Shown: piece by piece, positions 2,371-6,693 of the stretch
Layout of the letters: each line of letters opens with the position of its first letter
Numbering within the stretch: position 1 is the first letter of the stretch
Assembly: GCF_003144095.1 (NCBI RefSeq)
Contig: NZ_NSKH01000002.1
Span: 197,024 to 261,023, forward strand
Length of the DNA: 64,000 nucleotides
Reading direction: 5' to 3'
From: Streptomyces sp. ICBB 8177
GTDB taxonomy: Bacteria; Actinomycetota; Actinomycetes; Streptomycetales; Streptomycetaceae
Position numbers and translations under genes: made by a program
Notes under the pieces: model-generated
Database searches by the model: none
What the model saw: only the letters and a program-made list of their open reading frames with translations
Told to the model about the DNA's origin: nothing

Positions 2371-2438
2371 CCTGCGGCATCCTCAACCACCCCGCAATAC
2401 CCAGACGTTCCGGCGCGCGATCCGGTTACCCTTTCCGG

Positions 2439-3248
2439 ATGGCGGCAGTTCAGCGCATCGGATCCCGCAACGCCCGCTTCCAGCAGTGGCAGGCCCTGCT
2501 CACCAACCGTGCCAAGCGGCAGCGCGCGCGGGAGTTCGTCGTCCAGGGGGTGCGAGCCATCTCGCTCGCCGTGGAGCACGGGTGGCAGATCCGCGCCTTG
2601 CTGTATGACGCCGACCGCCCGCTGTCGCGCTGGGCCGAGGGTGTCCTGCGCACCGCGCGCGCCGGCGAAGTCGTCGCCATGGCGCCTGAGTTGCTCGCCG
2701 AACTGGGGGAGAAGGGCGAGGCGACGCCCGAACTGGTCGCCGTCGTCGGCATGCCGGACGACGACCTGGGGCGGATCAGCGTCAAGGACGACTTCCTCGG
2801 CGTGCTCTTCGACCGGCCGAGCCAGCCCGGCAACGTCGGCAGCGTCATCCGCTCCGCCGACGCCTTCGGGGCGAACGGACTGGTCGTCACCGGCCACGCG
2901 GCCGACCCCTACGACCCCAAGTCGGTGCGCGCCAGCACCGGTTCGCTCTTCGCGCTGCCCGCCGTGCGCGTTCCCTCGCCGCGTGAGGTGACCGAGTGGC
3001 TGGGCGGGCGGGCCCTGCTGGTCGGCACCGACGAGCACGGCGAGACCGACCTGTTCGACTTCGACCTCACCCGGCCCGTGCTGCTGCTCGTCGGCAACGA
3101 GACGACAGGGCTCAGCAACGCGTGGCGCGAGCGGTGCGACCACACCGTGCGCATCCCGATGACCGGCGCCGCCAGCTCGCTCAACGCGGCGAACGCGGCC
3201 ACCGCGGTGCTGTACGAGACGCGCCGCCAGCGGATCGCGGCACGCTGA
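2439..3248 (+). CDS. SpoU (TrmH) family RNA 2'-O-methyltransferase
   Basis: This 269-aa SPOUT-class enzyme should methylate the 2'-OH of an rRNA or tRNA nucleotide using SAM. The N-terminal substrate-binding part covers about residues 1-115. The catalytic SPOUT domain carries the three SpoU motifs: RPSQPGNVGSVIRSADAFGA (motif 1), VLLLVGNETTGLS (motif 2) and IPMTGAASSLNAANAATAVL (motif 3), which together form the trefoil knot. It is distinct from the RlmB-type paralogue at 13000. A TACCCT box 6 nt before the ATG with no clear ribosome-binding site suggests a leaderless transcript. The exact RNA target is unknown. Confidence 0.9.
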   Translation: MAAVQRIGSRNARFQQWQALLTNRAKRQRAREFVVQGVRAISLAVEHGWQIRALLYDADRPLSRWAEGVLRTARAGEVVAMAPELLAELGEKGEATPELVAVVGMPDDDLGRISVKDDFLGVLFDRPSQPGNVGSVIRSADAFGANGLVVTGHAADPYDPKSVRASTGSLFALPAVRVPSPREVTEWLGGRALLVGTDEHGETDLFDFDLTRPVLLLVGNETTGLSNAWRERCDHTVRIPMTGAASSLNAANAATAVLYETRRQRIAAR

Positions 3249-3271
3249 CGGCCGCAGCCGTTCCCGTACGG

Positions 3272-3442
3272 TCAGCCGCAGCAGCCGCCGCACTGGCAGG
3301 GGCCGCCGGACTGGCAGCCGCACCCGCAGCCGGAACCGCACCCGCACGCGCCGAGCAACGGCAGTGGCGAACGGAGCGGGCGCGGGGCGGGATCGAGTGA
3401 CGGCTGGGGGCGGGCGGTCGGCGTGCTGGGGGAGTCCGGCAT
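3272..3442 (-). CDS. Small cysteine-rich peptide, about 56 aa
   Basis: The peptide has a Pro-rich N-terminal half and a C-terminal 26-residue tail with nine cysteines, mostly in CGC, CQC and CC arrangements (GCGCGCQSGGPCQCGGCCG). A strong Shine-Dalgarno AAGGAGG lies 5 nt before the ATG, the best such site in this area, so I regard it as translated even though it is tiny. Such Cys density suggests metal binding (metallothionein-like) or a redox role, but no family is certain and no signal peptide is visible. It ends 24 nt after the convergent SpoU gene stops and lies upstream of, and in the same orientation as, nothing obvious except phoU. Confidence 0.7.
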   Translation of the reverse strand: MPDSPSTPTARPQPSLDPAPRPLRSPLPLLGACGCGSGCGCGCQSGGPCQCGGCCG

Positions 3443-3677
3443 CGTTGCCTCCTTGGCCTGGGCCTCGGCGTGCGCTGTACGACCGCACGACGCGGTCGCC
3501 ACCAGTGAACTACCGGGTCCACGGTGCATCAAGGGCGCGTCGGGGCGCGTGAACTCCCGCGCCCCGCGCGCCCCTCGTCAACCGAGCGCCCCCGCAGCCT
3601 GGTTCGGACCGCCCCACCGCCCTGAATCGGCCCGCCCCAGCGGTCCGCTCAGCGGCCCGACCCGGACCGCCGCGCTC

Positions 3678-4364
3678 TCACACCGCCGTGTCGTCGCCGA
3701 TGACCGTCGCCGGGGTCAGCTCGTCCGCGTGCTCGCCGGTGACGAGGTAGACGACGCGCTTGGCGACCGAGACCGCGTGGTCCGCGAAGCGCTCGTAGTA
3801 GCGGCCGACCAGCGTCACGTCGACGGCCGTCTCGATGCCGTGCTGCCAGCGGTCGTCCAGCAGGTGCTGGAAGAGGGCGCGGTGCAGCTCGTCCATGCGG
3901 TCGTCGTCCGCCTCCAGCTGGAGCGCGGCGTCCACGTCCTTGGAGATGATCACCTCGGCCGCCTTCGCCATCAGGCGCTGCGCCAGCTGGCCCATCTCCA
4001 GCAGCGTGCTGTGCAGGTCGCGCGGCACGGCCGAGACCGGGAAGCGCAGCCGCGCCAGCTTGGCGACGTGCCGGGCCAGGTCGCCGGAGCGCTCCAGGTC
4101 GGCGCTCATGCGCAGCGAGGTGACGACGATGCGCAGGTCGGTGGCGACCGGCTGCTGCCGGGCGAGCAGGTCGATGGCCCGGTTCTCCAGGTCCCGCTGG
4201 AGGTCGTCCACCTTCTCGTCCGCCGCGATCACGCTCTCGGCGATCTTCAGGTCCGCGTCGAGCAGCGCGGTGGTGGCCCGCCCGATCGCGGAGCCGACGA
4301 GCCGGGCCATCTCGACCAGGCCGTCGCCGATCGAGTCCAGCTCCTCGTGGTAAGCGTCCCGCAT
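3678..4364 (-). CDS. phoU: Phosphate transport regulator PhoU
   Basis: The 228-aa product matches PhoU in length and in its two three-helix-bundle repeats: about residues 1-110 (RDAYHEELDSIGDGLVEMAR, SLRMSADLERSGDLARHVAK) and 115-215 (GQLAQRLMAKAAEVIISKD, VTLVGRYYERFADHAVSVAK). The E-R-x-[GA]-D metal-binding signatures occur in both repeats. PhoU links the Pst importer to the PhoR kinase and damps the phosphate response. The ATG at 4364 follows AAGGAG. The gene is transcribed divergently from phoR-phoP across a PHO-box-containing intergenic region, as in other Streptomyces. Confidence 0.96.
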   Translation of the reverse strand: MRDAYHEELDSIGDGLVEMARLVGSAIGRATTALLDADLKIAESVIAADEKVDDLQRDLENRAIDLLARQQPVATDLRIVVTSLRMSADLERSGDLARHVAKLARLRFPVSAVPRDLHSTLLEMGQLAQRLMAKAAEVIISKDVDAALQLEADDDRMDELHRALFQHLLDDRWQHGIETAVDVTLVGRYYERFADHAVSVAKRVVYLVTGEHADELTPATVIGDDTAV

Positions 4365-4486
4365 CGTGTTCCTCTCCTTGCACGTGCCTGCGAGCCCGGC
4401 GCGAACCGCGGGGCCCAGGGAGCGTAGGACCCGGTGTCCGCGCCGGTCTCCACCGTGCGGCGTACACGCGTCCCGGCCGGGCATCC

Positions 4487-4530
4487 GAGGTGAATCAGCC
4501 CCGACACCACGGTGAACTCTTGGCAACGAG
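4487..4530. promoter_or_regulatory. PHO box: PhoP direct-repeat units between phoU and phoR
   Basis: On the plus strand GGTGAAT (4489) and GGTGAAC (4511) are exactly 22 nt apart, twice the 11-nt repeat period of the Streptomyces PhoP site; on the minus strand they read ATTCACC and GTTCACC, matching the GTTCACC core. A degenerate GGCAACG (4522) continues the 11-nt register. Location between phoU and phoRP fits known autoregulation. Confidence 0.8.
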
Positions 4531-4591
4531 TGTTCGAGAGGCCACCTGGATGGCTGTGGACCAGTGCTCGTCCCCGCTTAGCCTTGCAGAC

Positions 4592-6016
4592 ATGGACGTG
4601 AACGCGGCGGTGGCCGCAGCCAGCGCGATCGGCGGTGTGTGCACCGGCGCCTTCGCGGCGCTCGCGTTCCGCTGGAGCGAGCGCGAGCAGGCGCGTCCGT
4701 CCCGCTCCTCCCTGCACACCGAGGCGGTCCTGCCGCCCGGCGTCGACACCGTGCTGTCGGTACTGCGCTCGTCGGCCGTCGTCCTGGACGAGGGTGACAC
4801 CGTCGTCAAGGCCAGCTCCGCCGCGTACGCCCTGGGGCTGGTGCGGGGCGGGCGGCTGGCCGTGGACCGGATGCTGCAGATGGCCCGCGAGACCCGGCGG
4901 GACGGCGAGATACGGCAGGTCGAACTGGACCTGGCCCGGCGCGGGGGGCGCGGCGAGCCGCTGGCGGTCTCCGCCCGGGTGGCCCCGCTGGGCTCCCGGC
5001 TGGTGCTGCTGCTGGTCGAGGACCTGACCGAGGCGCGGCGCATCGAGGCGGTCCGCCGCGACTTCGTGGCCAACGTCAGCCATGAGCTGAAGACGCCGGT
5101 CGGGGCGCTGTCGCTGCTGTCGGAAGCCGTGATGGACGCGGCCGACGACCCCGAGGCGGTCAACCGCTTCGCGGGCCGGATGCAGATCGAGGCGACCCGG
5201 CTGACCAGCCTGGTCCAGGAGATCATCGACCTGTCCCGGGTGCAGAACGACGACCCGTTGGACGACCCCGAGGCGATCGCCGTCGAGGAGCTGATCGCCG
5301 AGGCGGTCGACCGCTGCCGCCACCCGGCCAACGCCAAGCACATCACCATGGCCGCCGGCGACACCTCGGGCCTGTTCGTCCAGGGCCACCGCGGTCAGCT
5401 CGCGGCGGCGCTGGGCAACCTGGTCGAGAACGCCGTCAACTACAGCCCCGCCCGCACCAGGGTCGGCATCGCCGGTCGCAGAATGTCGGTCGGGGGCGGC
5501 GAATTCGTCGAGATCTCGGTCACCGACCAGGGGGTCGGCATCTCCCAGGCCGACCGGGAGCGGATCTTCGAACGCTTCTACCGGGTCGACCCGGCCCGCT
5601 CCCGGGCCACCGGCGGCACCGGCCTGGGCCTGTCCATCGTCAAGCACGTCGCCGCCTCGCACGGTGGCGAGGTCACCGTGTGGAGCTCCGAGGGCCAGGG
5701 CTCGACGTTCACCCTGCGCCTGCCGTCCGTCCCCGACCCCGCGGCCACGCCGCCGCGGGACGACGCGGAGGACGAAGTACGGGACGACGACGGCCTGCGT
5801 GACGAAATCGGCGACGACGTCCGTGACGACCTACGTGACGACGACGTGCTCGACGCGGACGCCGTTCGGGACGCGGACGCCGTACGGGACGCGAACGCCG
5901 TGCGCGACGACGGTGCCGCCCGGCGCGGGCCCGCCCGTGCCGTGACCGGCGGCGCCATCACCACCATCACCAGACCCGCAACCACAACCCTTCCCGCCCC
6001 GGAGGTCCTTCCGTGA
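4592..6016 (+). CDS. phoR: Sensor histidine kinase PhoR (SenX3-like) with acidic repeat tail
   Basis: This kinase senses phosphate status with PhoU and phosphorylates PhoP. Residues about 4-27 form one membrane segment, followed by a PAS-like linker, the HisKA box FVANVSHELKTPVGAL (phospho-His about residue 164) and a HATPase domain with N box (NLVENAVNYS), G1 (DQGVGIS) and G2 (GTGLGLSIVKH). The ATG at 4592 gives the usual short N-terminus; a TAGCCT box 7 nt upstream suggests a leaderless mRNA. Oddly, about 95 residues follow the kinase core (from about residue 379): an acidic Asp/Arg repeat (VRDD, ADAVRD) and a Thr-rich end. At 474 residues it is longer than the roughly 425 expected. The stop overlaps phoP. 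Confidence 0.95.
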   Translation: MDVNAAVAAASAIGGVCTGAFAALAFRWSEREQARPSRSSLHTEAVLPPGVDTVLSVLRSSAVVLDEGDTVVKASSAAYALGLVRGGRLAVDRMLQMARETRRDGEIRQVELDLARRGGRGEPLAVSARVAPLGSRLVLLLVEDLTEARRIEAVRRDFVANVSHELKTPVGALSLLSEAVMDAADDPEAVNRFAGRMQIEATRLTSLVQEIIDLSRVQNDDPLDDPEAIAVEELIAEAVDRCRHPANAKHITMAAGDTSGLFVQGHRGQLAAALGNLVENAVNYSPARTRVGIAGRRMSVGGGEFVEISVTDQGVGISQADRERIFERFYRVDPARSRATGGTGLGLSIVKHVAASHGGEVTVWSSEGQGSTFTLRLPSVPDPAATPPRDDAEDEVRDDDGLRDEIGDDVRDDLRDDDVLDADAVRDADAVRDANAVRDDGAARRGPARAVTGGAITTITRPATTTLPAPEVLP

Positions 6017-6693
6017 CCCGAGTGCTCGTTGTCGAGGACGAGGAATCTTTCAGCGACGCACTGTCGTACATGCTCCGCAAGGAGGGCTTCGAGGTCGCCG
6101 TGGCGGCCACCGGGCCCGACGGGCTGGAGGAGTTCGAGCGCAACGGCGCCGACCTGATCCTCCTCGACCTGATGCTGCCGGGCCTGCCCGGCACCGAGGT
6201 CTGCCGGCAGCTGCGCAACAAGTCCAACGTCCCGGTGATCATGGTGACCGCCAAGGACAGCGAGATCGACAAGGTCGTCGGCCTGGAGATAGGGGCCGAC
6301 GACTACGTGACGAAGCCGTTCTCCTCGCGTGAGCTGGTGGCCCGCATCCGCGCCGTGCTGCGCCGCAGGGGCGAGCCGGAGGAGACGCTGCCTACCGCGC
6401 TGGAGGCCGGGCCGGTCCGGATGGACGTGGACCGCCACCTGGTGACGGTCTCCGGCGACAAGGTCGACCTGCCGCTCAAGGAGTTCGACCTGCTGGAGAT
6501 GCTGCTGCGCAACGCGGGCCGCGTGCTGACCCGCATGCAGCTGATCGACCGCGTGTGGGGAGCGGACTACGTCGGCGACACCAAGACGCTGGACGTGCAC
6601 GTCAAGCGGCTGCGCGCCAAGATCGAGCCGGACCCGGGCGCGCCGCGCTACCTGGTGACGGTGCGGGGTCTCGGCTACAAGTTCGAGCCGTAA
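6013..6693 (+). CDS. phoP: Response regulator PhoP (RegX3-like), OmpR family
   Basis: The 226-aa protein is the DNA-binding partner of PhoR and the master regulator of phosphate limitation. The receiver domain (residues 1-118) has the acidic pair EDEE, phospho-acceptor Asp52 (LILLDLMLPG), Thr in MVTAKD, and Lys about 101 in YVTKPF. The OmpR winged helix (about 130-226) includes LKEFDLLEMLLRNAGRVLTR and TLDVHVKRLRAKIE. The GTG start at 6013 overlaps the phoR stop (GTGA) and GGAGG lies 8 nt upstream, so the two are translationally coupled. Confidence 0.97.
   Translation: MTRVLVVEDEESFSDALSYMLRKEGFEVAVAATGPDGLEEFERNGADLILLDLMLPGLPGTEVCRQLRNKSNVPVIMVTAKDSEIDKVVGLEIGADDYVTKPFSSRELVARIRAVLRRRGEPEETLPTALEAGPVRMDVDRHLVTVSGDKVDLPLKEFDLLEMLLRNAGRVLTRMQLIDRVWGADYVGDTKTLDVHVKRLRAKIEPDPGAPRYLVTVRGLGYKFEP

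Follow-up and report, generated by a model that had tools for sequence, protein, structure and literature searches.

The window, by which we mean the whole 64-kb stretch of DNA analysed here, carries a short gene on its minus strand which reads from an ATG at 3442-3440 to a TGA at 3274-3272 and encodes a peptide of 56 amino acids, MPDSPSTPTARPQPSLDPAPRPLRSPLPLLGACGCGSGCGCGCQSGGPCQCGGCCG. All nine cysteines of the peptide (residues 33, 35, 39, 41, 43, 49, 51, 54 and 55) are located within its final 26 residues, ten prolines occur among residues 1-30, phenylalanine, tryptophan, tyrosine and histidine are absent, and no signal sequence is apparent by eye. Small size, many cysteines arranged as C-x-C and CC, and few or no aromatic residues are general traits of metallothioneins, and the peptide shows them, with nine cysteines in 56 amino acids. 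An initial annotation had given the coordinates of the gene (3272-3442) exactly, with the strand left out, and its description of nine cysteines in the last 26 residues and of an AAGGAGG motif 5 nt ahead of the ATG (3454-3448) is borne out by the open reading frame. The same holds for the position that it assigned to the gene, beside the phosphate regulon, with phoU located upstream and phoR- and phoP-type genes divergent (Table 1).

Table 1. Genes and sequence features at the mtpA locus, in positions of the window
Feature	Position	Strand	Evidence
SpoU/TrmH-family RNA methyltransferase gene, convergent with mtpA; 23 nt separate the stop codons	2439..3248	+	ORF, Pfam
mtpA coding sequence	3272..3442	-	ORF; match in 381/394 family genomes; dN/dS
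Seven-Cys core, codons 33-51, C-x-C-x3-C-x-C-x-C-x5-C-x-C	3290..3346	-	Cys invariant in 49/49 aligned loci
Ribosome-binding site AAGGAGG, 5-nt spacer to ATG	3448..3454	-	Sequence; similar sites in relatives, where the choice of start codon favoured such sites
Putative -10 TTCACT, 17 nt from TTGATG	3504..3509	-	Inferred from conservation
17-nt direct-repeat element CGCGCCCTTGATGCACC, 11-nt period, over putative -35 TTGATG (3532-3527)	3523..3539	-	Conservation
phoU, directly upstream of mtpA, 235-nt gap	3678..4364	-	Pfam PF01895, 1.3e-36; TIGR02135 above cut-off
PHO-box-like pair GTTCACCGTGG-N11-ATTCACCTCGG, units 22 nt apart, between phoU and phoR	4485..4517	-	Looser scan
phoR-type histidine kinase gene, divergent; start codon uncertain, open frame begins at 4490	4592..6016	+	ORF, Pfam/TIGR
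phoP-type response regulator gene, divergent	6013..6693	+	ORF, Pfam/TIGR

This gene order, with the peptide gene directly downstream of phoU and phoR-phoP divergent, is that used here to recognise orthologues of Streptomyces MtpA, and by gene order the window peptide is an orthologue of MtpA (S. coelicolor SCO4227). We put the probability that it has the identity of a metallothionein-like MtpA at about 0.82, and the gene is called mtpA throughout.

Short open reading frames are abundant by chance in such a GC-rich window, in which 76 spurious frames of at least 40 amino acids overlap the first 9 kb. The peptide nevertheless has the highest cysteine density in the six frames of the window, with 9 cysteines in 26 amino acids, the second-best place having 7 and no other place reaching at least 7. 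Among 60 simulated 64-kb windows, generated by a first-order Markov model which kept the nearest-neighbour composition of the window, none reached 9 cysteines in 26 amino acids and two reached 7. The 394 genomes of the family, taken as Streptomycetaceae, were searched with the window peptide at a cut-off of E <= 0.01 and 381 yielded a match, peptides being read in only part of them. For the 13 genomes that were missed, profile searches and frame reading revealed genuine relatives in four (G018, G020, G030, G195) and weak or false matches in five (G022, G028, G100, G124, G273); the remaining four gave no match in the profile search (G002, G016, G137, G213), and one of these, G137, is 71% complete. 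A few genomes of the family thus seem, on these searches, to be without mtpA. Matches extended to 188 of 197 genomes in an order-level sample and, with a profile at E <= 1e-4, to 56 of 394 in a class-level sample; 13 of the 14 class-level places fetched from outside the family encode cysteine-rich peptides of the mtpA kind, L130 being the exception. On frame reading, L103, L105-L112, L116-L118 and L130 are not metallothioneins. Two loci with a poor frame (L093, L096) were left out of the counts and L090 is partly masked.

A detailed comparison was made for 49 loci (L001, L009-L056), which were the best-scoring matches from the family and order searches, so that the set is biased towards close relatives. 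Seven cysteines are invariant in all 49, with the spacing given in Table 1, and several glycines, one alanine, one leucine and one glutamine around them are also fixed in the alignment; wobble positions in this core vary while the encoded residues stay the same. Median pairwise dN/dS values, estimated by the Nei-Gojobori method from pairs which are not independent, were 0.12 for the core (1148 of 1176 pairs usable), 0.85 for the proline-rich N-terminal part (1086 of 1176) and 0.40 for the two together (1160 of 1176). On the difference between 0.12 and 0.85, the core is the strongly constrained part of the peptide; it is under strong purifying constraint and the N-terminal part is near neutral. 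Some relatives of only 27 amino acids (L102, L104, L113, L170) consist almost of the core alone. The same cysteine spacing can be read in other fetched peptides, which were partly chosen by their cysteine pattern and thus provide no independent test.

According to the initial annotation, a lack of conservation in relatives or a dN/dS near 1 would count against the gene. Neither was found for the cysteine core, given matches in nearly all family genomes and the low ratio quoted above, and it is only in the N-terminal part that the ratio approaches 1. Conservation and codon evidence together establish mtpA as a gene, and the notion of a chance open reading frame, refuted by conservation, selection and the cysteine statistics, has a probability close to nil; the cysteine-rich peptide is encoded by a genuine, strongly conserved gene.

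The association with phoU is equally regular, phoU being upstream of mtpA in all 48 of the 49 loci with sufficient flank (L024 ends too soon), and an mtpA-type gene follows phoU in all six named Streptomyces loci. In a wider set, drawn partly from other genera, phoU is upstream in 23 of 27 loci; two of the four exceptions (L095, L162) are extra copies in genomes where the phoU-side copy is also present, and two (L097, L101) are without phoU nearby. A second short seven-cysteine gene was seen in some genomes (L095, L114, L162), with no phoU within the fetched flank. Four loci from genera g2 and g5 of the family (L097, L098, L101, L115) carry a version of 41-61 amino acids and no phoU; in L097 and L101 the cysteine-peptide gene is divergent from a phoR-type gene, at the place expected for phoU, and in L097 it sits between the phoR-type gene and a histidine-phosphatase gene. 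Both genomes of the window's genus (L001, L009) have a SpoU/TrmH-type gene on the downstream side of mtpA and convergent with it, and tblastn searches of about 1.5 kb of flank did not find such a gene near mtpA in the other 47 loci.

Upstream of mtpA, the direct-repeat element of the window matches the family pattern TGCGCC-S-TTGA-TGCGCC at 15 of 17 positions. Scores of at least 14/17 against this pattern occur upstream of mtpA in 42 of the 49 loci, a presence which arises by construction since the motif was drawn from those loci, and in most of this set the element stands 65-120 nt from the start codon. Relatives carry a -10-like sequence, TTCACT, TGCAAT or TTGACT, 17-18 nt beyond TTGATG. Low copy number and presence in other genomes were not built into the derivation of the motif. 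The exact pattern TGCGCCNTTGANGCGCC was found in 180 of the 394 family genomes, spread over 6 of 17 genera and in single copy in all but two genomes, against 7 occurrences of a reversed control pattern, as counted from the table of matches; neither the window's genome nor that of its one congener contains it. We used 150 listed places of the exact pattern, 28 of which had no mtpA place in view, and among the 122 that could be checked 117 lie within 278 nt of mtpA on the same strand and 5 lie elsewhere; the figure of 278 nt is a difference of listed coordinates, in which the upstream side was not scored and minus-strand values include the match itself. When up to two mismatches were allowed, 41 places were found in the window's genome as compared with 56 for the reversed control, and therefore no wider regulon is visible there. 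Scans for sigma-70 consensus promoters and for terminators yielded nothing in 2400-4700. Direct repeats with an 11-nt period which overlap a -35 sequence resemble the sites of OmpR/PhoB-type regulators and of AfsR.

A DNA pattern for the core yielded 22 named records, six from Streptomyces and 16 others, and so found some relatives which a first scan of named genomes had failed to confirm, perhaps owing to low-complexity filtering. The 16 other loci belong to Nocardiopsis, Streptomonospora, Allosalinactinospora and one organism named Glycomyces. With cyd queries derived from the L146 genome, cydB was found upstream on the same strand in 13 of the 16 (in L140 at a distance of about 2.5 kb), accompanied by cydA in 10; of the other three, L149 and L151 have less than 310 bp of flank and L142 has no cydB in 4.7 kb. 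Cytochrome bd subunits I and II were confirmed by Pfam in L119 and L123; in other fetched loci they were recognised by reading only. Overall, a seven-cysteine peptide was observed downstream of cytochrome bd genes in L119, L123, L134, L135, L138-L141, L143-L146, L148, L153 and L154. In L089, from another family of the order, the gene is located between acetyltransferase and thiolase genes. The cydB-linked peptides share with MtpA the core C-x-C-x3-C-x-C-x-C-x5-C-x-C, including CGCGCQ(S/N)G, and a strong ribosome-binding site; they differ in being mostly 34-38 amino acids long, in having an eighth cysteine near the C-terminus, in their cytochrome bd neighbours, which replace phoU, and in that no TGCGCC repeat can be seen by eye within 130 nt upstream. 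They are not a named family and were found in the present analysis; among the papers listed by a literature search on metallothioneins together with Nocardiopsis, cytochrome bd and actinobacteria, none dealt with them by title.

The founding paper on mtpA is reportedly that of Ghorbel in 2006. In those parts of the literature that were available, a table lists "SCO4227 Metallothionein protein (mtpA)" between SCO4226 and phoU, and the order in S. coelicolor is given as SCO4227 mtpA-SCO4228 phoU-SCO4229 phoR-SCO4230 phoP (PMC2267785). Phosphate limitation was reported to raise mtpA independently of PhoP (PMC3282765), whereas PhoRP was stated elsewhere to regulate SCO4226 and SCO4227 (PMC4991794), so that the excerpts conflict on PhoP control. 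SCO4227 was listed, at 0.14-fold, among the wild-type genes lowered by oxidative stress, along with phoU-phoRP (PMC4991794), and a review raised the possibility that oxidative stress is sensed or resisted by means of PhoU and the mtpA product (PMC7866108). For strain WAC07094, the text describes transcription of mtpA from its own promoter together with read-through from phoU, a reporter raised by Mg and by neither Mn nor Zn, a Mg effect which persists after loss of the locus, and constructs with and without mtpA indicating that the antibiotic pattern is not due to mtpA. The assertion of the initial annotation that no function had been described was thus too strong, given a name, a listing as a metallothionein gene and expression data (PMC2267785, PMC3282765, PMC4991794). 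Neither a measurement of metal binding nor a phenotype for deletion of mtpA only appeared in the excerpts, and for this reason we infer the biochemical role of MtpA. The gene is already known and named; the promoter element and the cydB context are leads of moderate interest.

With the PHO-box unit consensus taken from the available text on WAC07094, the PHO-box-like pair between phoU and phoR was detected, and the phoU-mtpA gap contained no pair at that threshold. The pair is weak on its own because the whole window contains 9 such pairs scoring at least 18; the strict pattern gave 5 matches as against 5.05 expected. The presence of a pair at phoU-phoR and not in the phoU-mtpA gap fits the excerpted report of PhoP-independent control (PMC3282765).

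Judged by its sequence, MtpA would most likely act as a cytosolic metallothionein which buffers a thiophilic metal; the cysteine core and the absence of a signal sequence by eye support the view of the initial annotation that it is metallothionein-like and probably cytosolic. The seven invariant cysteines, mostly in C-x-C pairs, would wrap around a cluster of thiophilic ions of the Cu(I) or Zn(II) type, and the N-terminal half may constitute a variable tail. Transcription would proceed from the gene's own promoter and by read-through from phoU, as described in the excerpt on WAC07094. MtpA could then buffer metal when the phosphate supply changes, as polyphosphate runs out and the uptake of metal-phosphate shifts, or it could quench oxidants. 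The link to phosphate is a guess, in which a metal buffer at such a locus would make sense since polyphosphate chelates metal and is depleted in phosphate starvation and since phosphate uptake carries metal. We propose this role at a phosphate shift tentatively, at somewhat less than even odds. A connection of the peptide with respiration and oxidants would be in keeping with the cydAB context. The reporter response to Mg, and not to Mn or Zn, in WAC07094 is not what one would expect of a thiolate metal binder.

An alternative is that the thiols, or a metal cluster held by them, detect an oxidant or a metal and exert their effect on PhoU or PhoR as a redox or signalling accessory, with no storage of metal. 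This would accord with the constant phoU neighbourhood, with the joint decrease of the locus under oxidative stress (PMC4991794), and with the role in the sensing of, or resistance to, oxidative stress that the review suggests for PhoU and the mtpA product (PMC7866108). Nevertheless, the same seven-cysteine spacing occurs with no phoU nearby in L097, in L089 and in the cydB-linked loci of the Nocardiopsis type, and contact with PhoU therefore cannot be what the core does in general, which leaves this alternative improbable.

Poly-cysteine leaders of the attenuator sort are known in mycobacteria, and a short, cysteine-rich, intergenic peptide could in principle be a cysteine-responsive leader which attenuates a downstream gene. 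The next gene is, however, convergent, so that no co-directional gene lies directly downstream and the idea is contradicted in the window genome; a strong Shine-Dalgarno sequence and the conservation of residues between the cysteines also argue against it, and we regard it as extremely unlikely. Scarcely more credible is a precursor of a modified or secreted cysteine-rich peptide, akin to the RiPPs, which a variable N-terminal part followed by a conserved C-terminal core would recall, as in leader-core precursors, but a recognised leader would not evolve almost neutrally as the variable part does, no peptide-modifying enzyme is among the neighbours identified in the window, and some relatives have only the 27 amino acids mentioned above.

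Returning to metal buffering by MtpA, we suggest, more speculatively than the role at a phosphate shift, a joint reading in which a dedicated activator of mtpA, of the response-regulator or SARP type, binds TGCGCC-N5-TGCGCC over the -35 sequence, where the promoter has a poor -10, with about one target per genome, and in which MtpA belongs to a wider actinobacterial family of seven-cysteine metallothioneins placed with phosphate control in the Streptomycetaceae or with cytochrome bd oxidase in Nocardiopsis and its allies. If both parts were true, thiolate metal buffering would be tied to phosphate and energy stress and not to metal resistance. For a known gene which is present in nearly every genome of the family, the core, the neutral tail, the promoter element and the cydAB context lead to testable questions, namely which metal is bound, which regulator acts and why the gene lies beside phosphate control.

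No Pfam family matched the window peptide or any of the 24 aligned sequences at E <= 1, NCBIfam and PDB contained no sequence relative, and tblastn gave no match to mtpA on plasmids, where the low-complexity filter may hide one. Fungal Cu(I) metallothioneins of about 25 residues carry some seven cysteines as C-x-C, with glycine and serine between them and no aromatic residues; MtpA matches no PDB chain by sequence, and a likeness to these proteins, if any, is probably convergent. SmtA and the Pseudomonas metallothioneins are likewise bacterial metallothioneins, characterised by a zinc-finger fold and histidine residues, whereas the window MtpA has no histidine and no Pfam family match. MymT, the copper metallothionein of Mycobacterium tuberculosis, was also compared by description and is a small cysteine-rich metal binder of an actinobacterium; it is set apart by being needed for copper resistance, mtpA being placed with phosphate control. 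In S. coelicolor the adjacent gene named in PMC4991794 is SCO4226, which encodes a nickel-binding protein, and its place is taken in the window genome by the convergent RNA methyltransferase gene; a search of the window's genome for the SCO4226-like family gave no match, but since its controls gave none either this is no sign of absence. Streptomyces MtpA (SCO4227, and mtpA of S. lividans) shares with the window the mtpA-phoU order with phoR-phoP divergent and a small metallothionein-like protein.
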